Assembly: GCA_026983715.1 (NCBI GenBank) | Contig: JALSTM010000240.1 | Span: forward strand, 1-32,816 | Direction of reading: 5' to 3' | DNA from: Desulfobacterales bacterium | GTDB taxonomy: Bacteria > Desulfobacterota > Syntrophobacteria > B119-G9 | DNA length: 32,816 nucleotides | Shown: piece after piece, positions 4,390-24,924 of the stretch | How positions within the stretch are numbered: the stretch's first letter is position 1 | Layout of the letters: each line of letters begins with the position of its first letter | Notes under the pieces: model-generated | What the model was told of the DNA's origin: nothing | The model's database searches: none | Seen by the model: only the letters and a program-made list of their open reading frames with translations | Position numbers and translations under genes: made by a program

Positions 4390-5805
4390 CTATTGGATCA
4401 ACCATTCTGAAAAATACCAGTCTTTTCCAGAATGATAACGATAGGCAGTGCCATTTTCTCTCTGTTTTTTCTGATGTTGATATGCCTGGTACATGAACGT
4501 TCTTACGATTGCATCACGGTTTGGCTGGTAAGTTCCGTCGTATGCGGAATCGATGTACGGAATTCGAAGTTTTTGCAAAAGCGGCTTCAGAACTGCAGAA
4601 GTGGCGGTACTTGGCATACAGGTAAACGGGAAAACATTTACAACGCCGTTGAAACCGTGTTCAGCATAGGCAAGAGCCCCCGCTATGCTGAGGGCTGCCT
4701 CGGTGCCCACGTCGAAGCAAAAAAGTTTTCTGGGCCCGAGTTTATCCTCGAGCGGTCCGATCGCATGATCGGGACTAATGTCCAGTTCAATACGTGCAGC
4801 CCTGTAAACCTGACCCTGGCGCCATAGTTGGTAGTAATACTCGATGACACTTTTACTCCATCTTTTAAGAGTACTGTAGAAGTCTTTCCATTGCCCGAGT
4901 CTAAGAGCCATTTTCCACTTCTGTCGAGCCTTTAAAGCCGTATCGTATGTAATGTAGTTTATCCATTCCGACATAGAAGCGTTTACCACTTCACCCCCGT
5001 ATTTTTCAATCAACCTAATGATGTCCTGGTTAGACTTGGTATGACATCTGAGATATATTTCTCCCACAATCCCAATTCTTGGTTTCCTGGGAATACCGGG
5101 GTCGATCAAATTCCTGGCTTCGTATACTAGTTCCCTTAACGTTTTTCGTATGGTTGGAAAATCTTTTTTATGTCCGCACTCTTCAATCACCCGGGCCATG
5201 GTTTCCAGGCCTTCTTCGTAAAGGCGATCCATGGCACCACTTTCTTTTTCGTAGGGGCGTACTCTCCAGAGTGTCCTATCCCAGACGTCTCCTGCCACCA
5301 TGGCAACGTAGGCGGTTCTCCTGAAATGCCTGGCCTTCTCAGCGGGCAGAAGCCCACCTATGGCGTAGCCATCCTTAGTTGAGAGATAAGCTATGGGGAC
5401 TTGCTGAAATTCCGGGAAGCTGTCGAGAACAATTCGCTGGAGCTTGTTATACATGCCAAATCGGCATGGGCCATCTGCTTCCGGCAGAAAATACACGTAC
5501 CTGGAAGCATCAAAAGCATCTCCGAGCCTCTCTTTTTCCTTCATTAAATGGTACAGAATGTCTCCGAGCGTAACCTGGCACGGAAAGCATTCTTTTCCGG
5601 AAGTAAATTCCTTGCCCAGCTTCAATCCGGTGTAGGTTTCCATTATTTGGGCATTTACGCCGAAGCTTCTGAAGGTTGCAGCAAGCAAATACTCGCTTGC
5701 CTTGCTCATTTCCGGAAGGAGCAATGTTTTACCGGTTACGTCGAAGCGACCGACTTTCTCCAAGAGGGAAGCGAATGTTGCATAGTTTATTACTTTTCCG
5801 TCCAT
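4390..5805 (-). CDS. 2-hydroxyacyl-CoA dehydratase-like protein (COG3581 type)
   Basis: A 471-residue protein related to the D-component (HgdAB/BcrBC-like) side of ATP-driven anaerobic dehydratases and reductases. The reaction of this subfamily is not assigned. Conserved cysteines that could ligate an Fe-S cluster are C73 and C76 (GKECFPC), C114 (ADGPCRFGMY) and C396 (FPFTCMPST). The reading frame is open to a GTG at 5823 that directly abuts the activase stop, but the ATG at 5805 has GAGGT upstream at good spacing and is preferred. The gene follows its putative activator by 18 bp, so the two are almost certainly cotranscribed and work together. Substrate unknown; anaerobic, oxygen-sensitive chemistry is inferred from family relationships. 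Confidence 0.85.
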   Translation of the reverse strand: MDGKVINYATFASLLEKVGRFDVTGKTLLLPEMSKASEYLLAATFRSFGVNAQIMETYTGLKLGKEFTSGKECFPCQVTLGDILYHLMKEKERLGDAFDASRYVYFLPEADGPCRFGMYNKLQRIVLDSFPEFQQVPIAYLSTKDGYAIGGLLPAEKARHFRRTAYVAMVAGDVWDRTLWRVRPYEKESGAMDRLYEEGLETMARVIEECGHKKDFPTIRKTLRELVYEARNLIDPGIPRKPRIGIVGEIYLRCHTKSNQDIIRLIEKYGGEVVNASMSEWINYITYDTALKARQKWKMALRLGQWKDFYSTLKRWSKSVIEYYYQLWRQGQVYRAARIELDISPDHAIGPLEDKLGPRKLFCFDVGTEAALSIAGALAYAEHGFNGVVNVFPFTCMPSTATSAVLKPLLQKLRIPYIDSAYDGTYQPNRDAIVRTFMYQAYQHQKKQRENGTAYRYHSGKDWYFSEWLIQ

Positions 5806-5823
5806 ACCATACCTCAATCGCAC

Positions 5824-8800
5824 TTATATGGCTTTTAACAAGGGTTTTTCAAGGTGTTTCTGATGTACATTTTGAACCACGTTATTAAACGCCTCCACCC
5901 GGGTCATCATCCCGGCAACAGCGGAATGTTCATCGAGTTCAAGAAGCAGGTACGGTTTTCCGTCCATCACGTGGTTGTAGAAATGTTCAATAAAAGAGTC
6001 AGCACCACAACTAAAATTGGTCAAATGTAACCCGTAAAAATGAGGGGTTGTCTTCACCAGCTTGGCTGCTCTCAGGATTCTTGCACCGAGCCCCCAGTAC
6101 ATGTTTGGAAAATCAGAGAGATCAATACCGGATAAATCTAGGAAATCCAGGGGAATCGCCCTGATTCCCAGTTTTGACAGGTGCCTCCCAAGCCTTAGGT
6201 TCAATCTCTCATCATAAAGATTATAAGGTCGCCCGCTTACAATCCAGATGGGGTTCTCACCGGTTTCTTCTTCAAGAAATTCTTCACCTATTTCTCTGAG
6301 CTTCCTGGTAAACTCCTGTTGCCTTTCTAGACCGATCCCCAAGGCCTCTTCGACCCTAGTTCTTTTTACCTTGAGACGCGGGAAGATACCATCGTGAACC
6401 TGTCTGACAAGGGCGGGGAATTCGTCTTTTAGATAGACTGTTGGATTTATAATTCTCCTTTCATCAAGTCCCAACGCCGCTTTAACGAGATACTGGCTGC
6501 TTTGAACCAGCGGGCAAAAGAACCCTGATTCCTTTTCAAGTAGCGCCGGCATATTAATCATGTTCGGCAAAAAGAGATAATAGGCATAACGGGAGAGAAA
6601 TTTCACGTGCCCGTGGAACACTTTCACGGGGAAGCAAGTTTCGGCAGTCATCGATTCAATCCCGATGCGGGCGAGCCTGTTGTTTGTTTTCGGGCTCAAA
6701 AGTACCCTGAAACCGAGTTCCGAGAAAAAGCTCGCCCAGAGTATCCCCCATTCCCAGAACGGAAGAGCAAGTGGAATACCTATGGTATGAGGATCGGGGC
6801 TTTGTGGCGGTTCAGCCAGGTCAGACAACTGCTCGGCTTTTTCAAAAAGAAGTTCCTCGAAGATTTCTTCTCTTACTTTGAAGAAATTTTTTGTCCTTGG
6901 ACCGGTAGCTTGAGCCATTTCATAACGGCCGCAATCCCCGCCCCAGATGCTTTTCCTTTTGCCAAACCTGTATATTTTTAGTTTACACTCGTTGTGACAG
7001 CGAGGATCTGCACGGCATACCTTCTCCGTGTACGTAACTTTCATGTTAATAAGTTCTTCCAGGGATCGGCTTTTGCTTTCCAGCATTCCCGCCTGACGCT
7101 GCTTTTCCCGTACTGCCAGTGCAGCCCCAAAAGCCCCCATAACTTCACGGTTAGGCGGAACAATTAGTTCCCTGTTTAAAACCTTTTCAAAAGCGGCGAC
7201 AATTCCTTTGTTCAGGGACGGTCCGCCAAGGAACATTATCTTCTGACCTATCTTTCGCTTACCCACCACTCGATTCAGATAGTTGTGAACGATTGCATAA
7301 CAGAGCCCAGCAATTAAATCGTTAATTCTGGCTCCCTTTTGCGCGTAGGAAACTAGATCGGATTCCATGAAAACGGTACAACGCTCGGCAAGGCTAATAG
7401 GACTTTGGGAAGAGAGGGCAATTTCCTGGAATTCTCCGACAATGTTGATCTTCAACTTGTTAGCCAATTCATGAAGAAAGCTCCCAGTTCCAGCCGCACA
7501 TACCTTGTTCATGTCAAAATCCAGGGGATAGGTGTTTTGTATGCGAATGTATTTGGAATCCTGCCCACCTATTTCAAAAACGGTGTCTACCGTCGGATCT
7601 ATCTCTACAGCACCTCTCGCGTGCGCCGTTATCTCATCAATGATTAAATCTGCATTGACAAAATCTCCCACCACATTTCGGCCGGACCCGGTTGTGGCAA
7701 CGCCTCTTATTTTCACCCAGCCATCTATCTCTTTATCCAGCACTCTTAGCAACTTTTGCGTTACTTCTATAGGTTTGCCCTGGGTTTGTACGTATTGCTT
7801 GTGAATTATCTTTCCGTGGTCATCGATAAGAGCATACTTAGTCGTGGTAGACCCGATATCAATCCCTAGGTAAACAGTGATGGGCGGATCGTAAGCCTTT
7901 TTAGCCGGGGTGAGCTCTTTACTTGGGTTAAATTTTGTTTTTTCGAGCCGGAGTACCGGGGCTCTAGGGAACTCTTCTGCTGTCTCACCAACCTTTGCCA
8001 TCTTTTCAAGGGACGGTTTGCATTTCCACCCGCATCTCTGGGCATGGAGGGCAGCGCCTAGTGCCCCAACTGATGTGTGGTGTTTGGGAACGATCAAATC
8101 AGGGTAATAGTGTCGAAAAGCCTTTACCTGTAGAGCGTTGCTCGCAACTCCACCAATAAAAATTATGGGACTCTCAAGCTTCTGGTTCGACACGATGGTA
8201 CTAATGTAGTTTGCCGCGTTACCGTAATGAAGGCCGGCGATTATATTTTCCAGGCTTTCACCCTTGTTCTGGAGGTGGATCATGTCTGATTTGGTAAAAA
8301 CGGTGCAACGACATGCAACAGGGGCCGGATCGTTACTTTTCATCCCTAGTTCTATGAAATCTTTGAGAGTTTTTTCTATGTGGTCGAAGGAAAAATCGAT
8401 TTCTTCGCCATAAATCGATGAAGAAAGACGCTCTGCCTGCTGGTCAATAAAAGACCCGGTTCCTGAAGCACACGGACCGTTCATGGTAAAAGATTCAAGT
8501 TCCCAGTCTCCATCGTGATAAGCAATTCTAAATAGGCATGCATCCTGCCCACCCATGCTGATGATCGTCCTAACGCCAGGCACAAGGTGGCATGCTCCCA
8601 CCACCTGGGTTATCGAGTCAAACTCGTACGGAATATCAAGCTTCTCACTTATAACCTTTCCATGATTTCCGGTGATGGACACTGAACGTATTTTTTCACG
8701 AGAGAAGTCCCGGTACACCTTACCAATAATCTTCTGGACTTCTTCCATGAAACGCCCAAAGTGTCTCAGGTACGGATATTCTTTAACAATTTCTCCTTCT

Positions 8801-14809: not shown

Positions 14810-14977
14810 AACTACCCCCTATGTAACTTAGGAGCTTGCGCAGAAGCGGTCTCTATTGTCATGGGATCAGGGATCTTGGGAAACGTTGATGTATAGCCTG
14901 TCATGAAAGGAAGTGGACTGTCAAGAGGAAAGAGGTCGAGGGGGATGGGGATTTTTTTGATTTTTTTTCATTTATTA

Positions 14978-16360
14978 CTAAAGTTTCGCACTAAAAAGTA
15001 CACTATTATCTAGCAGTATATTTTCAGCAATATCAAGGATATGGAAGAAGATTTCTGTGTCGAAATTGGTTGAAAATAGTTGACTTGACACCATCATTAT
15101 TTGCCTAAGACGACTCCAAAGAGCTGGGATAACAGTTAGTTCAAGTTGTTCTTGAGCTAGGCATCTGAACAGGGCTCCAATTGGGCCAGTTGAGTATCTT
15201 TTTGATAAAATGTAAACAAGAAGAAAATAGCGAAGCATTACGATAGAAGTCCATGCAATAAGGGCATCAAAGGTCTCACTTTGTCCCTTGCCAAGATCAA
15301 GAAGTTGCTTACAGTCTCGAAAGTAAACCTCAATAGACCAACGACGAGCATAGTAATCAAGTATCTCAGCGATTTCTAGATCAGTCTCTATTGAGAGAAA
15401 ACAGTGCCATCTTTTTTTACTCCATCGCACAAAGACAACCAGAACTGTTCCGGAAAGTGGAAGTTCAAGGGTTATAGCAGCAGCCTTAACGTTCCATTGA
15501 GGAACCTTTTGTAGCTTATGTCTCGCTATATTATGCCAAATGGCCTTAAGTGTGAGCAACTCACCATTGTAACCGTAGCGGGTTTTACCTGCTTTAAGCC
15601 GGCAAATTACCCCATAGCCAATATCCAGGACCTTAGAGATAACTTTGTCGTGTGCAAACCAGCTGTCAAAAAGAACAAATCGAGCATCAATGCCCTGCTG
15701 ATAAGCTCTTTGCAACATTTCAACAAGAAGATCAGTCTTCTTCTTGAAGCTCTCAGCTCGACGTTTCCATCCATTTGTGCGTCGATCAATTGAGCGGATC
15801 TTTTCATTGGGACGCTTTTTGGAGATATGAAATCCCACATCTATAGGATAAAAGTGACTTCCATTGTGATAACCGAGCTGAAGCATCTGGTAACCTAATT
15901 GCCTGCTATGGATCTTATGATCATGATGAAAGCTTACAAGCTCCATGTTCTTTCCGGTCTTTTTCAAAATGGTGTCATCTGCAATGAGAACTTTGTCATT
16001 GAATGCTACTCGATCACATAGCGCAACAATACGATTGACTACCAGATAGATAAACCTTCTCCAATTAAACCGAGGATGATTGAGGAATCTGTAATAGGCA
16101 TCTTTTCCGGCATTGATATATCGCTTATAAAAGTCAGTTGTCCAAAGAGACGTTAAGTTCATCTTAGCCAATGGAAGCAAAAGCATTACAAAAAGTAAGC
16201 TAGCGGGAGAATAACCCTTCTCCTTTCTGATGTTACTACGACACAAAAGAGTTTTTACGTTTAGTTCATTGACTGCCCTATTGACTTCTGGTTCAGCACT
16301 TATACGCTGTTTTTTAATTTCCTTTTGAATTGAGAGCGACATTAGTGTATGATTCTTCAT
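14978..16360 (-). CDS. IS4-like DDE transposase
   Basis: A 460-residue cut-and-paste transposase with an RNase H-like DDE core. The first aspartate is in VLIADDTILKKTG, the second in VLFDSWFAHD. The glutamate is in the Y-(2)-R-(3)-E-(6)-K-like signature YARRWSIEVYFRDCKQ. The length and the intact frame suggest it could be active. AAGGAG lies seven bases before the ATG, within an inverted repeat that could hide it (see 16361-16425). It points away from the pha genes. Assignment to IS4 is from the motif layout; the subgroup is not certain. Confidence 0.92.
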   Translation of the reverse strand: MKNHTLMSLSIQKEIKKQRISAEPEVNRAVNELNVKTLLCRSNIRKEKGYSPASLLFVMLLLPLAKMNLTSLWTTDFYKRYINAGKDAYYRFLNHPRFNWRRFIYLVVNRIVALCDRVAFNDKVLIADDTILKKTGKNMELVSFHHDHKIHSRQLGYQMLQLGYHNGSHFYPIDVGFHISKKRPNEKIRSIDRRTNGWKRRAESFKKKTDLLVEMLQRAYQQGIDARFVLFDSWFAHDKVISKVLDIGYGVICRLKAGKTRYGYNGELLTLKAIWHNIARHKLQKVPQWNVKAAAITLELPLSGTVLVVFVRWSKKRWHCFLSIETDLEIAEILDYYARRWSIEVYFRDCKQLLDLGKGQSETFDALIAWTSIVMLRYFLLVYILSKRYSTGPIGALFRCLAQEQLELTVIPALWSRLRQIMMVSSQLFSTNFDTEIFFHILDIAENILLDNSVLFSAKL

Positions 16361-16425
16361 GGCAGCTCCTTCTTTAGTGATTTTAATTGTTTATGAAAAT
16401 CAACTATACTAAATTTGGAGCTGCC
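16361..16425 (-). promoter_or_regulatory. Inverted repeat that could sequester the transposase ribosome site
   Basis: On the minus strand, GGCAGCTCC (16425-16417) is followed 47 bases later by GGAGCTGCC (16369-16361), which contains the transposase Shine-Dalgarno and abuts the ATG. A TATAGT lies just inside the upstream arm and could be the native -10. A transcript starting there would lack the upstream arm and be translatable, whereas read-through RNA from outside would fold and mask the ribosome site. Confidence 0.55.
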
Positions 16426-16526
16426 TTTCCACTAAAAAATGATAAAATTCAGTGTGTTACCCAAATTAATTAACCTAAATTCATGTGCGAAACTTTAGTA
16501 GTAACATTGATACATAAGGAGAAAAA

Positions 16527-17945
16527 ATGGGAAAGGTAAAAAAAGTTCTCGAGATTATTGACCCTTTTAGTGATGACTACAAGAACATCAACAGTGCCAA
16601 GGATGATAGGTATTACAGGAAACTCTATGAAGAAATTTTCAAGAACATCCCTACCCGGGCACGCGCTGCAATTGTGAAGAACTACCTGGAGTACCTAAAT
16701 AACGTATCAAAACCGTTCTGGGAACTCGGGAACCCTTTCACCTGGCTTGATCCTGAATCTGTAGTAAACAATACCTTGGAAACATGGGAAAATGCGTTTA
16801 GATTCGGTGCAGGCGCAACTAAGTACCTCTACGATCTGATGGCATCGATGAAGCTAATTGAAAAGTCGAGCGTTTATTATGAAGTTGGTAAAAATATAGC
16901 AGTTACACCGTGCGAAGTTATCCACGAAACTCCTCTTTTGAAATTGAAAAGGTATATCCCGGCGGGTGATACAGTATATGAAGCACCACTCTTTATGATC
17001 TACTCAATAATAAACGGGTACTACATCCTCGATCTCACCAAAGAGTTGAGCATGATAAGATACATGGTGGAAAAGGGCTACGATGTATTTGTTACTGACT
17101 GGAAGCTGATTACAGAAGAAACGAAAAATGCCACCCTCGAAGATTACATAGCTGAGATAATGGAAGCAAAAGAGGTTATAAAGAAAGTAACGGGACAGGA
17201 TAAGATAGGTGGTCTCGGATACTGCATTGGAGGAGCGTACATAGATATCGATGCCGCACTAAACAACGGGTACCGATATCTGGTTAATCTTACTACCCTT
17301 CTAAACTCCAAGGTTGGAGAAGAGGGGGCAGGGTTGATGGGAGCTTTTTCTGATTTTTCCGTCAACGACATAGATAAATTCGTGGAAACTCACGGTGGGG
17401 TCTTTCCTGGTGAAATTCTAAAAAGCTTCTTCGACTGGGTAAAGCCTGAAAAAGCTGCATTAATGTTTATGGATATGTACTTTTACGGAAACGAGTACAA
17501 ATATGCCAATGATGCGGTATTTTTCTGGAACAATCATTCCACCAGGGATCTCGCGGGACCCGCTCACAGGGAATATTTATGGGAGATATACTATAAGAAC
17601 AACCTTGCAAAGGGAAAGATGAAACTCTTTAATCGAACGGTTGATCTGAAAAAGATAACCGTTCCGTATTGTAACGTTGCAGCGGTATTTGACCACATTG
17701 TTCCCTTCCCGAATGCTCTCTCTACTGCTTATCTGATTGGGACTCCTAAAGAAGACCAGATGACCGTAAAGGTGTACGGCGGACATGTGAGAGGCGTGGT
17801 GAACCTTCACCTTTACCCGGTACTGGAAAAATTTATCAGGAAATACTCCGGCAAGAAAGTGCGAAAAGTCGAATCTATTGGCGTTCTGTCTAAAATTCCA
17901 TCAAATCGCTCTTGTAGTGCTCAGGCAACTCCTGGTGTGGCTTGA
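16527..17945 (+). CDS. phaC: PhaC-like polyhydroxyalkanoate synthase
   Basis: A 472-residue alpha/beta hydrolase of the PHA synthase family, which polymerises (R)-3-hydroxyacyl-CoA on granules. The catalytic triad is complete: C233 in the lipase-like box GYCIGG, D389 in VFDHIVP, and H420 in YGGHVRG. It is shorter than class I synthases (about 550-600) and longer than class III PhaC (about 355); the N-terminal 120 residues are class I-like in extent. AAGGAG precedes the ATG. It is the first gene of the cluster and is followed 44 bp later by phaE. The insertion sequence ends only 26 bp upstream, so its original promoter has probably been displaced. A degradative or accessory role cannot be excluded. 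Confidence 0.85.
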   Translation: MGKVKKVLEIIDPFSDDYKNINSAKDDRYYRKLYEEIFKNIPTRARAAIVKNYLEYLNNVSKPFWELGNPFTWLDPESVVNNTLETWENAFRFGAGATKYLYDLMASMKLIEKSSVYYEVGKNIAVTPCEVIHETPLLKLKRYIPAGDTVYEAPLFMIYSIINGYYILDLTKELSMIRYMVEKGYDVFVTDWKLITEETKNATLEDYIAEIMEAKEVIKKVTGQDKIGGLGYCIGGAYIDIDAALNNGYRYLVNLTTLLNSKVGEEGAGLMGAFSDFSVNDIDKFVETHGGVFPGEILKSFFDWVKPEKAALMFMDMYFYGNEYKYANDAVFFWNNHSTRDLAGPAHREYLWEIYYKNNLAKGKMKLFNRTVDLKKITVPYCNVAAVFDHIVPFPNALSTAYLIGTPKEDQMTVKVYGGHVRGVVNLHLYPVLEKFIRKYSGKKVRKVESIGVLSKIPSNRSCSAQATPGVA

Positions 17946-17989
17946 TTGATGGATAGTTCAAGAACGATCTAACGGAACGGAGTGTAAAT

Positions 17990-18871
17990 ATGAGTAGCAG
18001 TGATCAAGATAGGAAAAGCAACGACGTTTTTACCGAGTGGTTCAAGTCAGGCTTTGATTTCTGGACGTCCATGGGAAAGGCGTGGCCTGATTTTACGAAG
18101 ATCTTTGAGAGTACCCTGCCCGAGGAACATCCGTTTGAGTTCCTGAAATCGTGGCAGTCAATGATGAAAATGTCGGAAGGTATGATGTCTGCCCTCTCAT
18201 CTTCAGGAACATTTTCCTCCGCCTTCAGCGGATTGAGTTCACTTCCTGAAATAGTCCTGAAAATGGCCCAGAAAGGTTGGGATGGGTATTTTTACCTTTA
18301 CCGACAGTGGCTGGAAAAGAGTATGAGCGGGACAAGGCCGGTTCAGGCATACGTATTTGAGAAGTTAGATGAGAATACCTTTAAAGCCTGGACAGAGATA
18401 TATGAAAAGGAATTTAAGCAAATTCTAAAAATGCCCAAGATAGGCCTTGCCCGCGAATACCAGGAAAGGTTAGCAGATCTCGCGGACAAGTTTAGCGTTT
18501 TTCAGGCAACGCTTGCAGAATTTCTCTATACCCTGTACTTGCCGGTTGAAAAATCGATACAAGTTGTTCAACAAAACATGGGGGAACTGGCAAAAAGCGG
18601 GGAACTCGGGGATGACTTTAAAAAAATATACAAGATGTGGATTAAGACTCTCGAAGGTCACTACATGACTCTTTTTAAGTCCCCGGAATACACGAAGGTT
18701 TTAAAGAGGCTCCTGGATGCGGTGGAAGATTACAAAATTGCGAGGGAAGAAGTTTTGATGGATATGCTCCAGGCTTTGCCAGTACCTACAAATCGTGACA
18801 TAGATGACGTTTACAAGGAAATACACGAATTAAAAAAGCAGGTAAGGGAATTATCACGAAAGGTTAAGTAG
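17990..18871 (+). CDS. phaE: PHA synthase subunit PhaE
   Basis: A 293-residue non-catalytic partner of class III PHA synthase, which binds PhaC and is needed for full activity on the granule. The protein is largely helical. It has the PhaE-type middle (KIYKMWIKTLEGHYMTLFKS) and the C-terminal end with DVYKEIHELKKQVRELSRK, a short coiled coil typical of PhaE. A Ser/Met-rich stretch lies near residues 55-85. GGAG lies seven bases before the ATG. It sits between two PhaC-family genes; the second, class III, is its expected partner. Confidence 0.85.
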   Translation: MSSSDQDRKSNDVFTEWFKSGFDFWTSMGKAWPDFTKIFESTLPEEHPFEFLKSWQSMMKMSEGMMSALSSSGTFSSAFSGLSSLPEIVLKMAQKGWDGYFYLYRQWLEKSMSGTRPVQAYVFEKLDENTFKAWTEIYEKEFKQILKMPKIGLAREYQERLADLADKFSVFQATLAEFLYTLYLPVEKSIQVVQQNMGELAKSGELGDDFKKIYKMWIKTLEGHYMTLFKSPEYTKVLKRLLDAVEDYKIAREEVLMDMLQALPVPTNRDIDDVYKEIHELKKQVRELSRKVK

Positions 18872-18907
18872 AAGAAATAAATAGAATCGACAATGACGGG
18901 GGTAGTT

Positions 18908-20053
18908 ATGAGCGAACCCAGGATAGCCATAGATCTTATTATGGAAAAATTGGCGGAAGAATCTGAAAGGACTCAGGAGCGTTTCCTGAAGGCCCAGGAT
19001 GTTCTTCTTGGTGAGCTTGACACTGAAATCGCCACTACGCCATACGATGTAGTGTACCAGATTGACAGGGTTAAGCTAAAATACTATAAGCCCAAAACCC
19101 GAAGGAAAATTAAGACCCCTTTACTGGTTGTATATGCTCTTATCAACCGGGAAACGATGCTTGACCTTCAACCGGGAAGAAGCGTTGTACAGAACTTTCT
19201 AAATGAAGGTGTGGATCTTTACATGATTGATTGGGGTTATCCCACCAGAAAAGATCGGTTCCTTTCCATAGATGACCATGTAAATGTTTACATTGATAGC
19301 GTTGTGGATTTCATAAGAGAAAAGCATAAAAAGGATAAGATTAACCTCATGGGTATATGCATGGGTGGCACATTTTCAGTTATTTATACTGCCCTGCATC
19401 CTGAAAAGATAAAGAACCTGATAACCACTGTTACCCCAACAAACTTTGATACGGACAAGGGCCTATTGCACATATGGACAAAACAGATTGACGCGCAAAA
19501 ACTCGTAAAAGCATACGGGAATATGCCGGGAGATATTCTTAACCTTGGGTTCTTGCTTCTTAATCCTGCCCGGTTAATGATTGATAAGTATGTGGGATTC
19601 CTTGAGAATATTGACAACAAGACCTTTGTTGAAAACTTCATTCGAATGGAAAAGTGGATCTTTGACAGCCCGGATGTCCCCGGGGAAACGTTCAGGCAGT
19701 TCATTGAGGACTGTTATCAGAAGAACTTGCTTATCCAGAACAAGATGGTTGTTGGAGGAAAAAAAGTTGACCTGCGGAAAATCAAGGTGCCTCTTTTAAA
19801 CATCTACGGAAGGTTTGACCACCTGGTTCCGCCCGAAGCATGTGAACTTCTGACCAAGAAGGTAGGAAGCAAGGACACGGAGGATATTTGCCTGGATACC
19901 GGGCACATAGGGATTTATGTCAGTTCCAAGTGTCAGAGGGAACTGGTACCGAAAATCGTCCAGTGGCTAAAAGAACGTGACGATGTTCCTCCAAAAGTTA
20001 AAAAAGTCAAAAAAACTAAGAAAGTAGCTTCAAAGACTAAAAAAAGTAGTTAA
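18908..20053 (+). CDS. phaC: Class III PHA synthase catalytic subunit PhaC
   Basis: A 381-residue synthase. The triad is C151 (MGICMGG), D304 (YGRFDHLVPP) and H333 (DTGHIG), nearly the same positions as in the Allochromatium vinosum class III enzyme. YALINRETMLDLQPGRSVV and the DLYMIDWGYP segment are class III hallmarks. The C-terminus has an added lysine-rich tail of about 20 residues (PKVKKVKKTKKVASK). An in-frame ATG lies 15 bases upstream without a ribosome site; the ATG at 18908 has GGGGGT before it and is preferred. It follows phaE by 36 bp and completes a PhaE-PhaC pair. Confidence 0.92.
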   Translation: MSEPRIAIDLIMEKLAEESERTQERFLKAQDVLLGELDTEIATTPYDVVYQIDRVKLKYYKPKTRRKIKTPLLVVYALINRETMLDLQPGRSVVQNFLNEGVDLYMIDWGYPTRKDRFLSIDDHVNVYIDSVVDFIREKHKKDKINLMGICMGGTFSVIYTALHPEKIKNLITTVTPTNFDTDKGLLHIWTKQIDAQKLVKAYGNMPGDILNLGFLLLNPARLMIDKYVGFLENIDNKTFVENFIRMEKWIFDSPDVPGETFRQFIEDCYQKNLLIQNKMVVGGKKVDLRKIKVPLLNIYGRFDHLVPPEACELLTKKVGSKDTEDICLDTGHIGIYVSSKCQRELVPKIVQWLKERDDVPPKVKKVKKTKKVASKTKKSS

Positions 20054-20096
20054 GGGTTACTGATGAAATAATGCTAAACGGATACAGGAGTGAAAA

Positions 20097-21152
20097 ATGA
20101 CTGTGAAAAGAAGCGGAAATGATTATTTCGAATCCATCTGCGAAGTTGTTAGAGCCTTCGGGACTACCCTGAACAAGGACGAAATTCTTGAACTCATTGT
20201 GGACAACGCAATAAAAACAATGAACGGGAAGGCTGCGTGTCTTTTCCTGGCCGAGGAAGGAGAGGATATTTACCAGCCTGTTGCCCAGAAAGGGCTTTCC
20301 AAGAACTATTTGCATGCTGACCCCATGAAGGCAAAGAAGGCTGCAAGCGACGTACTCCAGGGGGGATACCTGGCAATCAAAGATGCAACCACTGACCCAA
20401 GGGTAGAAAACCACGAAGCCAAGAAGAAAGAAGGAATTGCATCGATACTCGTAGTGCCGGCTATGTTCAAGGGGAAAACCGTCGGGGTCCTGGCTCTCTA
20501 TACTGACACCCCCAGGGACTTTTCCCCAAAAGAAATTAACTTTCTGAAAGCCCTCGCAGAACAGGGAGCGATTGCCATTGAGCATGCCCGTCTTTTTGAG
20601 CAACTGCGCAGGAACACGAGAATATTTCATAATATTGCTGTAAGTATACAGTCTAGCCTTGATATAAAGAAGATCCTGCACATCCTTTCGGCTGACGTTG
20701 CAGAGGCTCTTGATGTTAAAGCATCCTCAATTCGCTTGTTGAATGAAAAAACTAATGTGCTTGAACTCGTTTCGAGCTACGGGTTGAGTGAGGAGTATCT
20801 CAGTAAAGGAGACGTTCATGCGGACAAGAGCATAAGTGAAACCCTGGAAGGAAAGCCTGTCTGGATTGAAGATGCCACCAAGGACGAGCGGGTTCAATAC
20901 CGCGACGAAAAAAAGAAAGAAGGAATTGTGTCCATGCTTTCGGTCCCCATCAAGACAAAAGAGAAAGTTATTGGGGAACTCAGACTTTACACGGACAGGA
21001 GAAGGGAGTTTACTGAGGACGAGTTAATGCTCGTAAACGCCTTGGCACACCTTGGGGGACTAGCAATCCAAAATGCATCCCTTTACCTGATGCTTAAAAC
21101 TGATATCAAGGAACTTCAGGACGACATGTGGAGCCACAGGTCATGGTTCTAG
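20097..21152 (+). CDS. Tandem GAF-domain protein in the PHA cluster
   Basis: A 351-residue cytoplasmic protein made of two GAF domains (about 10-170 and 185-335) and nothing else recognisable. The two halves are duplicates: DATTDPRVENHEAKKKEGI in the first matches DATKDERVQYRDEKKKEGI in the second, each followed by a VP-containing strand and an LYTD motif. There is no kinase, cyclase, HTH or other output domain, so it probably acts by binding a ligand and a partner protein. CAGGAG precedes the ATG. It starts 43 bp after class III phaC and is followed 49 bp later by phaJ, so it belongs to the same transcript. Ligand unknown. Confidence 0.8.
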   Translation: MTVKRSGNDYFESICEVVRAFGTTLNKDEILELIVDNAIKTMNGKAACLFLAEEGEDIYQPVAQKGLSKNYLHADPMKAKKAASDVLQGGYLAIKDATTDPRVENHEAKKKEGIASILVVPAMFKGKTVGVLALYTDTPRDFSPKEINFLKALAEQGAIAIEHARLFEQLRRNTRIFHNIAVSIQSSLDIKKILHILSADVAEALDVKASSIRLLNEKTNVLELVSSYGLSEEYLSKGDVHADKSISETLEGKPVWIEDATKDERVQYRDEKKKEGIVSMLSVPIKTKEKVIGELRLYTDRRREFTEDELMLVNALAHLGGLAIQNASLYLMLKTDIKELQDDMWSHRSWF

Positions 21153-21201
21153 AGCTAAGTTTTTGAAACGGAAAAAAGACAAGATCGTGGAGGATGGAGA
21201 A

Positions 21202-21630
21202 ATGATAGGGAAAACTATTGACGAACTCAAGGTTGGGGAGTATGCGGAATTATCAAAAACGATAGCAGAATCAGATGTTTATCTTTATGCGGGCATTACC
21301 GGGGATTTCAACCCTGCACATATAAACGAAGAGTATGCCGCAGGAACTTTCTTCAAAACTCGGATAGCTCATGGGATGCTTCCGGCGGGTTTTATATCGG
21401 CAATTCTAGGGACGAAGCTTCCCGGTCCAGGGACCATTTATGTTAAACAGGAACTTAAATTCCTGGCCCCCGTCAAAATGGGTGACACCATCACTGCCAG
21501 GGTTGAAGTTACGGAGATAGATAGAGACAAAAAGAAGGTCACCCTCAAAACAACGTGTACTAACCAAGAAGGCACCGTTGTTCTTGATGGGGAAGCCGTG
21601 GTGAGTCCACCCAGGCCACCGAAGAAGTAA
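21202..21630 (+). CDS. phaJ: (R)-specific enoyl-CoA hydratase, MaoC family
   Basis: A 142-residue hotdog-fold hydratase. PhaJ hydrates trans-2-enoyl-CoA to (R)-3-hydroxyacyl-CoA, linking beta-oxidation intermediates to PHA synthesis. The hydratase-2 catalytic pair is seen in GDFNPAH (Asp and His, five apart), and IAHGML is the usual second motif. The frame is open to a TTG at 21163, but the ATG at 21202 has GGAGG eight bases before it and gives the standard PhaJ length. It is the last gene of the plus-strand pha run. The position after phaC supports supply of monomers from fatty-acid or crotonyl-type CoA esters. Confidence 0.9.
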   Translation: MIGKTIDELKVGEYAELSKTIAESDVYLYAGITGDFNPAHINEEYAAGTFFKTRIAHGMLPAGFISAILGTKLPGPGTIYVKQELKFLAPVKMGDTITARVEVTEIDRDKKKVTLKTTCTNQEGTVVLDGEAVVSPPRPPKK

Positions 21631-21652
21631 AGATTATGGAACCAGATAACAA

Positions 21653-21765
21653 CCTGAACCCGTGATCGTTCACCTGGGCTGCAAATGCAAGGAAGAGCCC
21701 GTCGGAATACAGTACGCAATGTCCGGCGGGCGATGACGCCACAGATGCGGTTCAGGTGAACGATC
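21653..21765. repeat. Interspersed repeat with inverted arms (copy C of the CTGAATCCGTGA family)
   Basis: The phaJ-phaR gap contains a 13-bp perfect inverted repeat, GATCGTTCACCTG (21664-21676) and CAGGTGAACGATC (21753-21765). Its left part, starting CCTGAACCCGTGATCGTTC at 21653, matches the reverse complement of the end of the repeat near 32404-32442 at nearly all of 38 positions. It has no T-run and is not a typical terminator. No gene was seen in 21631-21886. Confidence 0.7.
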
Positions 21766-21886
21766 CAAAGGGCGTAAAAAGATTGCTTGACAAGGTGACG
21801 AATAATCCATTCTTGCTATGTGGCTACCAATCAGCCCTTTGGTTCGGAGGATTGCTCCGTTAACCCTCGTGGTGGGGAGCGTGTTT

Positions 21887-22369
21887 CTATTTCTCTTCCT
21901 TGTCTTTTTCTTCCTGTTTTACCGTGCGTGGTGAGAAATCGAAGGGTTTTTTCGGAAAAAGATTTAGTATTGCCTTCTGGCCGATGGTCGATAGGTCCAT
22001 GCCGAGCTCAAGCCAGTTCCTAAACTGTTCGTCAACGGCAGACTTGTAGGCCAGGTAATTCTTAATAGTTAGCTCAAGGTACTTTTCGAAAAATTCACTT
22101 AGAACGTTTTCGCCGTACCTAATGATGAGGTGCAAAAGGGATACGGGCAAAAAGGAACTGTTTTTCCTGGTTTGTTCCAAGATTATCTGTGTTAATATAA
22201 AAGCGGTAACATCCTCACCAGTCTTTACGTCTATAACTTCTACCTCGTAGCCACCTTTTATCAGTTCGGCAACTTCCTTTAACGTAACGTAGGCGCTTTT
22301 CTTGGTGTCATACAGGCGCCTGTTCGGATATTTTTTGATTATAATTTTCCCCTTTTCTTCCTCTTCCAC
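21887..22369 (-). CDS. phaR: PHA synthesis repressor PhaR
   Basis: A 160-residue DNA-binding repressor that also binds PHA granules, and so releases phasin promoters when polymer accumulates. The PhaR DNA-binding domain is clear: IIIKKYPNRRLYDT at about 9-22, YVTLKEVAELI, and DVKTGEDVTAFILTQIILEQ near 47-66. The rest is the PHB-accumulation-regulator C-terminal part with an acidic and lysine tail. Both candidate starts are GTG. The one at 22369 has AGGAGG immediately before it (spacing short) and is preferred over 22384, which lacks a ribosome site. It is divergent from the first phasin-like gene, and the shared promoter region is its expected target. Confidence 0.92.
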   Translation of the reverse strand: MEEEEKGKIIIKKYPNRRLYDTKKSAYVTLKEVAELIKGGYEVEVIDVKTGEDVTAFILTQIILEQTRKNSSFLPVSLLHLIIRYGENVLSEFFEKYLELTIKNYLAYKSAVDEQFRNWLELGMDLSTIGQKAILNLFPKKPFDFSPRTVKQEEKDKEEK

Positions 22370-22433
22370 AAATCCTCCTGACACAACGCAATAAATTTTA
22401 ATCCCGAAACTTCCATAAGAATCTGCTCACATA

Positions 22434-22462
22434 TTAGTAATTTAGATATTCTCGCTTGTCAA
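22434..22462 (-). promoter_or_regulatory. Candidate phaR promoter
   Basis: On the minus strand, TTGACA (22462-22457) is followed by a 17-base spacer and TACTAA (22439-22434). The -35 overlaps the palindrome CGCTTG-T-CAAGCG (22453-22465), which is a plausible site for autoregulation. Confidence 0.45.
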
Positions 22463-22474
22463 GCGATGCGAGCC

Positions 22475-22513
22475 TGTGTGCAATTTTTTAAAATATACTT
22501 GTGCAGTGCAACA
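22475..22513. promoter_or_regulatory. Candidate PhaR operator region (TGCA boxes)
   Basis: TGTGTGCAA at 22475-22483 and TTGTGCAGTGCAACA at 22499-22513 repeat the TGCA core just upstream of the phasin -35 element. TGC/GCA-rich dyads are known PhaR targets in other bacteria. Assignment here is by motif and position only. Confidence 0.4.
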
Positions 22514-22521
22514 TTTTTCTC

Positions 22522-22549
22522 TTGACATCCCTTTTTTTGTGGTTATAGT
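22522..22549 (+). promoter_or_regulatory. Sigma-70 promoter of the phasin gene set
   Basis: TTGACA (22522-22527), a 16-base spacer and TATAGT (22544-22549) make the strongest promoter match of the pha region. It lies 64 bp before the first phasin-like ATG and directly beside the TGCA boxes. Confidence 0.75.
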
Positions 22550-22613
22550 ATGCTTAACTAAAGATCGGCTGATGGTTAGAGGGTAGAAGCTTGAAGGAGA
22601 AAGGTTTGAAAAT

Positions 22614-22964
22614 ATGACTACATCAAAATTTGTTGAAGCAATTTGTGCTATGCAAAGAGAAATCTTAAACACAACAACCAGGACGACGGGATTGATGTGG
22701 AAACAGATGGTTGAATTTACCGAAATACTTGTCAAGCACAATCCTTGTGTTCCTGATACCGCCAAGGAAGTAATGGCCGGTGCACTGTCATCGTACCTTG
22801 ATTTCGTGGCAGAGAAAGAAAACATTTCAAACGTTGTAAATGGTGCTTCGAAGGAAATAACGGAACTGGTAATGAAATCAATGGGTATTTACACTGAGTC
22901 GAACGAGAAGACAGACGTTGGCAAACAGGTCTTGGACCTTGTAGGTCCGGACCCCAAAAAGTGA
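22614..22964 (+). CDS. Phasin-like small helical protein
   Basis: A 116-residue, predicted all-helical protein without signal peptide or membrane segment. It begins MTTSKFVEAICAMQREILN and contains KQMVEFTEILVKHNP, an amphipathic pattern like granule-coating phasins. I do not recognise a specific family. The call rests on its place behind a strong promoter opposite phaR and before further phasin-like genes. A 12-bp perfect inverted repeat brackets it: GATCGGCTGATG at 22563-22574 and its complement at 22977-22988. AAAGG lies nine bases before the ATG. Confidence 0.6.
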   Translation: MTTSKFVEAICAMQREILNTTTRTTGLMWKQMVEFTEILVKHNPCVPDTAKEVMAGALSSYLDFVAEKENISNVVNGASKEITELVMKSMGIYTESNEKTDVGKQVLDLVGPDPKK

Positions 22965-23020
22965 TTGGCGAATGATCATCAGCCGATCATAAATAATTAT
23001 TTAAAGGAGGTTAAGAGGAA

Positions 23021-23320
23021 ATGGTTCAGTTGGAAATGGTTAAACAAATGATCGAATTTAACAAGATGGCTTTCGAAAACACGTTCAAGGCCATGACCCT
23101 AGTGCAGGATCAAACGGAAGAGATGCTTCTTTCCTATATGGAAAAGGCTCCCTGGCTTCCAGCGGAAGGGAAAAAGGCTCTCAAAGACTGGCTAGATAAC
23201 TGCAAAAAGGTAAGGAAAGAATACAAAAAAATAGTAGATGACGGGTTTAAAAGGATGGAGGAGCTTTTTGCCAAGGCAGAAAAAGGTGGTGAAAAGACCA
23301 AAAAAGCAGAATCGAAATAG
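23021..23320 (+). CDS. Phasin family protein, first of a tandem pair
   Basis: A 99-residue helical protein expected to coat PHA granules. It has MVKQMIEFNKMAFENTFKAM, a mid-region P-W-LP-x-EGKKAL motif, then a long charged helix and a lysine-rich tail (EKGGEKTKKAESK). It is a clear paralogue of the next gene, sharing KQMI-x-NK-AFENTF and EGKKAL in register. AAGGAGG and GAGGAA precede the ATG, so high translation is likely. It is 56 bp downstream of the first phasin-like gene. Confidence 0.7.
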   Translation: MVQLEMVKQMIEFNKMAFENTFKAMTLVQDQTEEMLLSYMEKAPWLPAEGKKALKDWLDNCKKVRKEYKKIVDDGFKRMEELFAKAEKGGEKTKKAESK

Positions 23321-23341
23321 TTAATAAAAGAGGAGGAAAAG

Positions 23342-23596
23342 ATGGAACCAAAAGAAATGATGAAGCAGATGATTAAGTTAAACAAGACCGCATTTGAGAA
23401 CACTTTCAACTCCATTGTAATGCTACAGAACCAGACCGAGCAAATGGTGCAGACCCTGATATCTCAGTCTCCATTGCTTCCGGATGAAGGTAAAAAAGCC
23501 CTGGAAGAATGGATCAAGGCGTACAAAAAGGCTCGCGATGAGTTTAAAAAAGCAGTTGATGAAAGTTACAAAAGAGTTGAAGATTTCTTCGCTTAA
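23342..23596 (+). CDS. Phasin family protein, second of a tandem pair
   Basis: An 84-residue helical protein that aligns end to end with its upstream neighbour: MMKQMIKLNKTAFENTFNS, LLPDEGKKALEEW, and YKRVEDFFA at the C-terminus. It lacks the lysine-rich tail of the first copy. The pair arose by local duplication. GGAGG lies five bases before the ATG, and only 21 bp separates the two genes. A hairpin follows the stop, so this gene probably ends the first phasin transcript. Confidence 0.7.
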   Translation: MEPKEMMKQMIKLNKTAFENTFNSIVMLQNQTEQMVQTLISQSPLLPDEGKKALEEWIKAYKKARDEFKKAVDESYKRVEDFFA

Positions 23597-23601
23597 AAAC
23601 T

Positions 23602-23645
23602 ATTCGGCACGGTTTATCCTACTGGATAGAATTGCCGTGCCGAAT
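23602..23645 (+). terminator. Hairpin after the phasin pair
   Basis: An 11-bp perfect stem, ATTCGGCACGG (23602-23612) with CCGTGCCGAAT (23635-23645), encloses a smaller TATCC/GGATA stem-loop. Only three T's follow, so it may be a leaky terminator or an mRNA-stabilising end. A second small stem-loop, AACAGA/TCTGTT at 23654-23671, lies just before the next gene. Confidence 0.55.
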
Positions 23646-23685
23646 TTAACGAAAACAGATTAATTTCTGTTAGCATGGATAGATT

Positions 23686-24180
23686 ATGAATAAAGAGTTT
23701 CTTGAATTCTGGGGGAAATTTTTGCTTGATGCTGCCAAAGGACAGAAGCAGCTTGAAGAGTTTTCCAGGTGGATTACGGGAGGTTTTCGGGAGTTTGGTG
23801 ATCTGACAGAACAGTTTAAGAAAGTTTACGGGCTTGATAAGCTTTCGGAAGACGACCCAGAGTATCCTTCCTTATGGGAAAAATCGGTCAAGGATTTCCG
23901 CGAAACCTTTAAAGAATACCTGGAACTGTTTAACCTTGTCCCGAGGGAGAAGTATGACGAGCTTGCGAGACAATGCGAAGAACTCAAAGAAAAAGTTCGT
24001 CTACAGGAGGAGAAGATCAAGCAATTGGAGCGGCTCCTGGGGGAGAGGGGTATTGACTACGTCAACATGGCGGGTGAGTTCCAGAAATTAATTGAAAAAC
24101 AAGCAAAGGACTTTCAAAAAGTTTTAAATAGCTTTGCAAATCCTTTCCGTGAAACTGATTCTGAGAAATCAGGGGAATAG
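23686..24180 (+). CDS. Coiled-coil PHA-cluster protein, phasin or PhaE-like
   Basis: A 164-residue soluble helical protein of no family I can name. It starts MNKEFLEFWGKFLLDAAKG, has a middle segment with PSLWEKSVKDFRETFKEY, and a clear heptad coiled coil near residues 85-120 (REKYDELARQCEELKEKV onwards). The C-terminal helix has FQKVLNSFANPF, like the ends of PhaE and phasin proteins. The ribosome site is poor. It lies between phasin genes and a further 240-residue relative, which supports a granule-associated role; this is inference from context. Confidence 0.55.
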   Translation: MNKEFLEFWGKFLLDAAKGQKQLEEFSRWITGGFREFGDLTEQFKKVYGLDKLSEDDPEYPSLWEKSVKDFRETFKEYLELFNLVPREKYDELARQCEELKEKVRLQEEKIKQLERLLGERGIDYVNMAGEFQKLIEKQAKDFQKVLNSFANPFRETDSEKSGE

Positions 24181-24201
24181 GGGCTAAGTAGAGGTGAGAA
24201 A

Positions 24202-24924
24202 ATGGTTGAGAATAAAGCATTTAAATGGACTAATTACTATGTCGAATTCTTGGAACATATGAACGAGGCTTCCTCAAAGGTTTTTACCGAAAGCTCAAAA
24301 GTATACAGCCAGTTCATGGAAAGTCTCTTAAAGGTAAACAGAGACCGATCGAAAGGTACCTTCTTTTTCCAGGATCCTGAAGAGATGAAAGAAATCTATA
24401 AAAATACCCTCGATCACGTAAAGAAAATACTTGAACCTTATACTGTTGTTCATCCGTACGGGGATGAAATAGCCGACTTGGCATCTAGAAATGCGGAGAA
24501 AGGTTTTGATTTCTGTACCTCTTTGTTTTCAACACAACTCGATTTTTATCAAAAAGCTGGGGAGGTATCCCGCAATACTTGGAAGGCCTGCCAAGAAATG
24601 GTAGGGGTGGACAAGGTTCTAAAACCTGGTGAAATAATCAAGAAATGGACGGGTATTTCTGTAAAAATCCTGGAAGATCTGGTTAAGTCTCCTTTTACCG
24701 ATGCTATTCCGGTAGTAACGGCAAAATACGTGGAATACCTTAGATCCGGCGTTGAGCTCCGGAAGAAGGTTCTTGAGTACCCTTACGTGAGTAAAAAAGA
24801 GTTTTGTGAACTTTCAAAGGACGTAAAAGAAGTTAAAGAGTTGTTAGAAAAAGGCTTGAAAGAGAGAGAAGCTCAACAGGCCACGAAAAAAACCGCGGCA
24901 AAAGTTGCTGATAAAAAGAAATAG
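24202..24924 (+). CDS. PhaE/phasin-like granule protein with lysine-rich tail
   Basis: A 240-residue helical protein without membrane segments. Helices such as WTNYYVEFLEHMNEASSKVF and TLDHVKKILEPYTVVHP precede a PhaE-like end with SKKEFCELSKDVKEVKELLE. The final 15 residues are Lys/Ala-rich (ATKKTAAKVADKKK), resembling the histone-like tails of some PHA proteins that tie granules to the nucleoid. GAGGTGAG precedes the ATG. It follows the previous gene by 21 bp and is closed by a good terminator. The family assignment is tentative. Confidence 0.6.
   Translation: MVENKAFKWTNYYVEFLEHMNEASSKVFTESSKVYSQFMESLLKVNRDRSKGTFFFQDPEEMKEIYKNTLDHVKKILEPYTVVHPYGDEIADLASRNAEKGFDFCTSLFSTQLDFYQKAGEVSRNTWKACQEMVGVDKVLKPGEIIKKWTGISVKILEDLVKSPFTDAIPVVTAKYVEYLRSGVELRKKVLEYPYVSKKEFCELSKDVKEVKELLEKGLKEREAQQATKKTAAKVADKKK

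Follow-up and report, generated by a model that had tools for sequence, protein, structure and literature searches.

We analyzed a polyhydroxyalkanoate (PHA) gene island at positions 16527-24924 of a 32,816-nucleotide stretch of Desulfobacterales bacterium DNA (hereafter the window). The conserved unit in this island consists of phaE, a class III phaC (phaC2) and a gene for a tandem GAF protein (GAF-GAF), usually followed by phaJ, and this partnership of synthase and GAF-GAF is a stronger result than any on whether the additional synthase-like protein PhaC1 joins the pair in a heteromer. The island is probably a class III PHA operon, widespread in the phylum, to which one gene has been added; PhaE and PhaC2 would provide the main polymerase, and PhaC1 would be a second, divergent synthase paralogue. 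The genes phaC1, phaE, phaC2, GAF-GAF and phaJ all lie on the plus strand with successive gaps of 44, 21, 43 and 10 bp, which suggests a single transcript from phaC1 to phaJ; in this genus, phaC1 and the class III genes are probably transcribed together. Every open reading frame of the island is present at the coordinates given below and was judged not to be a chance frame; their orthologues are under strong purifying selection, which argues that the genes are real. A preliminary description of the island had placed two PhaC-family enzymes with intact Cys-Asp-His triads on either side of one phaE. Domain matches (two to PhaC_N, one to PHA_synth_III_E) bear out this arrangement, and the triads C233/D389/H420 of PhaC1 and C156/D309/H338 of PhaC2 are invariant in their orthologues. 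The GAF-GAF gene and five small open reading frames that it listed are also present, but the phaJ and phaR genes in the same span had gone unmentioned.

Size and subunit make-up divide the PHA synthases into four classes. Classes I and II consist of one protein of ~60 kDa, and class III combines a PhaC of 40-53 kDa with PhaE (PMC6403647). PhaE of the window (17990-18871, plus strand, 293 residues) matches PF09712 with 96 bits (gathering score 25.7) and scores 97 bits against TIGR01834, below the cut-off of 155. PhaC2 (18893-20053, plus strand) has 386 residues, or 381 from a conserved ATG at 18908, with a mass of 44 kDa and a Lys-rich tail; it passes the class III model TIGR01836 with 443 bits (cut-off 365), and phaE adjoins phaC2 in the PHA loci read. 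Judged by these matches, PhaE and PhaC2 would form an ordinary class III synthase and act as the main two-subunit polymerase. They resemble the PhaE-PhaC of Allochromatium vinosum and the haloarchaeal PhaEC, with phaE directly upstream and sizes of 44 and 34 kDa inside the published ranges (PMC6403647); however, the operon here also includes the gene for GAF-GAF, and a second phaC is present in this genus. A class III-group PhaC beside phaE in genome G032 (locus L032, 1399-2475) has no G-x-C-x-G-G box recognized by pattern search, and an extra 203-residue protein in genome G028 (locus L039, 6987-7598), encoded between GAF-GAF and phaC1, matches the C-terminal part of PhaE (PF09712, 27.8 bits).

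GAF-GAF (20097-21152, plus strand, 351 residues) contains two GAF stretches (PF13185/PF01590) above the gathering score, which makes it a tandem GAF protein. Its orthologues were found in 31 of 395 genomes of the phylum. A class III PhaC gene directly adjoins it in all 29 loci read (L148-L176), and in most of them phaE precedes and phaJ follows. The PhaC proteins were split into a subfamily of 34 genomes scoring at least 568 bits and a more distant PhaC of nine genomes at 440-461 bits. GAF-GAF is present in 29 of the 34 genomes with the former versus 0/9 with the latter, and its association with the PhaC subfamily gave a Fisher p of 2e-36, uncorrected for kinship. Two further GAF-GAF genomes lie outside the 34, one with a PhaC fragment at the locus (G060) and one with a match cut at the contig end (G277). 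GAF-GAF is missing from four class III phaE-phaC loci that belong to the subfamily, L204 (G255), L205 (G236), L188 (G158) and L192 (G407), where phaJ or phaR occupies its position; in G407 only a weak single GAF-like match was seen.

The predicted structure of GAF-GAF (predicted local distance difference test score, pLDDT, of 81) comprises two GAF domains with a long helix between them, followed by a C-terminal helix (residues 307-346) and a free tail. The tail has the consensus WSHRSWF, with Phe as the last residue in 35/35 sequences, Lys or Arg at -4 in 35/35 and Trp at -2 in 33/35, and is absent from GAF-GAF paralogues in the same genomes. The closest solved relatives are the GAF units of phosphodiesterases, PtsP-type phosphotransferases and histidine kinases. 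Like the tandem GAF sensors (PDE5/6 units and stand-alone GAF proteins), GAF-GAF has two joined GAF domains and then long helices; unlike them, it lacks an output domain, carries a conserved aromatic tail at its end and always sits beside class III phaC where the neighbors are readable. As it possesses no enzymatic or DNA-binding domain, GAF-GAF most likely senses a small ligand or dimerizes, and since it has no output domain, an output via protein-protein contact is the simplest inference. To pass on the signal, it would bind the synthase or the granule with its C-terminal helix and aromatic tail. We tentatively propose that GAF-GAF is a hitherto unrecognized third component of the class III synthase of this phylum, which would sense a ligand, dock to PhaE-PhaC or the nascent granule via WSHRSWF and set polymerization, with PhaC1 standing apart as a separate, unclassified clade of short synthases. 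No paper in the open-access subset of the literature was found to bring together a GAF domain, phaE, phaC and a gene cluster. If the proposal is true, GAF-GAF would be the first allosteric sensor dedicated to a PHA synthase. The conserved GAF-GAF partner suggests a way in which anaerobes might link carbon storage to a signal inside the cell, and its short tail peptide lends itself to direct tests.

PhaC1 (16527-17945, plus strand, 472 residues, 53.8 kDa) possesses the hallmarks of the PHA synthase superfamily, namely PhaC_N, the Cys-Asp-His triad and an Asp-His pair. It had been described as fitting neither class I nor class III, and profile scores agree: 214 bits against the class I model TIGR01838 (cut-off 622), 176 bits against the class III model TIGR01836 (cut-off 365) and 124 bits against the class II model (cut-off 855). 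Its orthologues score 198-227 bits against the class I model, and all of these matches end at about position 462 of the 532 positions. The class I C-terminal extension (R521-A589 in Cupriavidus necator), which is also missing in class IV (PMC6403647), is thus missing from PhaC1, and the class I Trp residues are substituted or absent. Part of the class I N-domain is kept in shortened form, with PhaC_N starting at residue 93 (PF07167, 64 bits). Two class I sequences, complete and from the same bacterial class, reach 525 and 588 bits with the class I model and score ~2.5 times higher with the class II than with the class III model; PhaC1 is therefore not simply a class I synthase. It shares with the class I synthases of C. 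necator, Chromobacterium USM2 and Aeromonas caviae the PhaC_N domain, a GYCIGG box and the motifs DHIVPF and GHVRGVVN, and its best profile model and best structural matches are of class I, but it differs from them in its length of only 472 residues, the shortened N-domain, the absent C-terminal extension and its position outside the class I clade. A Foldseek search with the predicted PhaC1 structure returned PHA synthases as all top 15 matches, in agreement with the sequence search. Of the 33 alignment columns that class I and class III both conserve, PhaC1 retains 29, and C233, D389, H390 and H420 are invariant across the five intact orthologues. Because the PhaC1 clade pairs an N-domain of class I type, in shortened form, with a catalytic core resembling that of classes III and IV and lacks the C-terminal extension, it is useful for asking which parts set the need for a subunit and the substrate range.

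Phylogenetic trees were built from 54 and 49 PhaC/PhaZ sequences, taken from the genomes and named plasmids, and contain no classical class II or IV references. All five intact PhaC1 sequences fall together in a single long-stemmed clade, and the sampled class I sequences, taken together, are its sister group. PhaC1 groups with class I (27 rows) with support of 100/99 and 99/97 at full length and 99/96 on the catalytic core only, and the class I rows, 22 in number, make up a clade that excludes PhaC1 (100/99; 100/98 on the core only). Grouping of PhaC1 with class III was rejected (p=0.015 at full length, p=0.028 on the core), as was grouping with the PhaZ-like rows (approximately unbiased test, p=0.007). 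A position inside class I or class III is therefore unsupported in both full-length and core trees, and PhaC1 falls outside the known depolymerase and class I clades, although long branches limit its placement. PhaC1 is assigned to a rare, synthase-like clade that belongs to neither class I nor class III.

The preliminary description had also considered a dedicated remodelling enzyme; on such a reading PhaC1 would remodel or mobilize PHA by hydrolysis or thiolysis and would not be a polymerase. PhaC1 shares an alpha/beta hydrolase fold and a Cys nucleophile with the PhaZ depolymerases, and alcoholytic cleavage of PHA has been reported for class IV synthases (PMC6403647). No TIGR01849-type intracellular poly(3-hydroxybutyrate) depolymerase was found in the genomes of the genus or in G028 (G000, G001, G002 and G028), apart from a match in the PhaC2 tail; only generic alpha/beta hydrolases matched NF050089, none over the cut-off. 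Hence PhaC1 might have a role in PHA mobilization. However, profile searches gave no match of PhaC1 to the PhaZ models TIGR01849 or PF06850, PhaC_N is present, and His390 after the catalytic Asp is of the synthase type, where the PhaZ-like rows carry Asp. Moreover, genome G053 carries both PhaC1 and a PhaZ-like gene. With the tree test added, these features led us to reject a PhaZ-type depolymerase; the sequence favors a synthase, and a remodelling function in place of polymerization is unlikely.

PhaC1 orthologues were detected in five of 56 genomes of the class, comprising all three of the genus, G028 (family f3) and G053 (family f6). No further PhaC1 genome was found among 395 drawn from the phylum, and no further close relative among 396 genomes of the phylum of G434, a bin labelled Nitrospira; a wider origin was dropped as a candidate. 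In G434 (locus L040, 1-1517), frame-broken PhaC1-type pieces with a duplicated stretch were seen, which may be a pseudogene, an assembly error or the product of misbinning. The order phaC1-phaE-phaC2-GAF-GAF-phaJ-phaR-small genes is identical in the three genus genomes, so it is not unique to this one, and phaC1-phaE-phaC2 was found nowhere outside the genus in the genomes compared. In G028 the order is thiolase-phaE-phaC2-GAF-GAF-small gene-methyltransferase-phaC1, which places PhaC1 ~3 kb from the class III pair. In G053 (97% complete), phaC1 stands alone in an unrelated neighborhood, between genes named from their sequences as a Mrp-type ATPase and a universal-stress protein; this genome has two class I-like PhaCs but neither a PF09712 match for PhaE nor a class III PhaC. 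Conversely, phaE-phaC2 is kept without PhaC1 in ~30 genomes across the phylum.

An insertion sequence (IS) element occupies 14976-16500 on the minus strand, with a DDE transposase gene at 14978-16360 (DDE_5 and DDE_Tnp_1 Pfam matches) and a perfect 16-bp terminal inverted repeat, TACTAAAGTTTCGCAC / GTGCGAAACTTTAGTA. Its right end lies 26 bp ahead of the phaC1 start codon. The two sibling genomes have different DNA there and share a promoter-like element, TTTTGACTAT-N9-TGTTGTATGTTG, upstream of phaC1, which was not found in the window with three mismatches allowed. The IS and the absence of this element suggest that expression of the operon may be changed here. Together with the sporadic distribution of PhaC1 and the broken pieces in G434, the IS would fit a PhaC1 that is decaying or non-catalytic and plays no major part. 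Such a paralogue is quite improbable, as the triad and most synthase columns are intact, the gene keeps its position in three genomes, and selection is strongly purifying: the ratio of nonsynonymous to synonymous differences (pN/pS) of PhaC1 is ~0.13, compared to 0.08-0.16 for PhaC2, PhaE and GAF-GAF (window-sibling pairs, with synonymous sites saturated), and its dN/dS, the corresponding substitution-rate ratio, is 0.035 between the two sibling genomes.

The tight spacing of phaC1, phaE and phaC2 in three genomes and the short distance in G028 could speak for one obligate heteromeric PhaC1-PhaE-PhaC2 synthase with PhaC1 as its specificity or regulatory subunit, but this is very doubtful and was dropped as the leading reading, because PhaC1 occurs alone in G053, the phaE-phaC2 pair occurs without PhaC1 in many genomes and the order is not kept outside the genus; PhaC1 is more likely an accessory synthase. 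Of the preliminary description as a whole, what stands is a short PhaC that fits no class, next to a class III pair and in an order conserved within the genus, and its heteromer is weakened.

As a second synthase beside the PhaE-PhaC2 polymerase, PhaC1 does not need PhaE or PhaC2 to persist in a genome; it probably contributes a synthase activity that differs in monomer or chain properties. In the genome of Haloferax mediterranei, too, several phaC paralogues (four phaC in all) accompany one phaE; however, its paralogues are 43-58% identical, class III-like and non-adjacent, whereas PhaC1 is ~27% identical to PhaC2 and adjacent. Two of its three extra PhaCs worked when co-expressed with phaE (PMC2939530), a precedent by which PhaC1 could share PhaE or could be inactive. 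Several points weigh against an independent, active second synthase. Haloferax mediterranei PhaC2 has the triad yet is inactive (PMC2939530), so that an intact triad is no proof of activity. Alignment revealed four otherwise conserved positions altered in PhaC1 (P195I, L271M, D337H and W436F). The AlphaFold model of PhaC1 was computed from 8 alignment rows and has a pLDDT of 58, which makes its N-domain details unusable. PhaC1 may also interact with PhaE, which is compatible with the gene content, and the IS next to phaC1 could silence or alter the operon. In addition, the window is one contig of a 3.39 Mb draft genome, and the genomes compared are draft metagenome-assembled genomes.

Downstream of GAF-GAF, phaJ (21163-21630, plus strand) encodes a MaoC-type (R)-enoyl-CoA hydratase (PF01575, 85 bits) that would supply (R)-3-hydroxyacyl-CoA; its orthologues of 142-143 residues begin at the position of ATG 21202, an alternative to the start at 21163. 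The gene phaR (21887-22384, minus strand) encodes a PHA synthesis repressor (PF07879, 98.5 bits; TIGR01848, 105 bits with a cut-off of 109), which together with the small granule proteins would control and coat the granules. A promoter-like site, TTGACA-N16-TATAGT (22522-22549, plus strand), precedes the small-protein genes; it is a consensus match only (11/12), and the total of such sites is at chance level.

The five small proteins labelled granule-type in the preliminary description are all encoded on the plus strand by real open reading frames, although none reaches a phasin gathering score in Pfam, the best being PhaP_Bmeg with E=0.03 for the 84-residue protein. The label thus rests on recurrence at PHA loci. 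The first gene (22614-22964) encodes a conserved protein of 116 residues with orthologues in L037 and L038 and no Pfam match. Proteins A (23021-23320, 99 residues, with a Lys-rich tail and no family over the cut-off) and B (23342-23596, 84 residues) are paralogues, and relatives of theirs turn up again at PHA loci in other families of this phylum. A coiled-coil protein of 164 residues (23686-24180) has relatives at PHA loci in other families of the phylum, where they adjoin the phaE-phaC-GAF-GAF-phaJ unit. The last gene (24202-24924) encodes a 240-residue protein with orthologues in the genus, no Pfam match and a Lys-rich tail. Lys-rich C-terminal tails are thus seen in PhaC2 (18908-20053) and in the products of 23021-23320 and 24202-24924, and also at 4670-5866 and 6987-7598 of L039; those of PhaC2 and the small proteins recall the nucleoid-binding tails of PhaM and PhaF.

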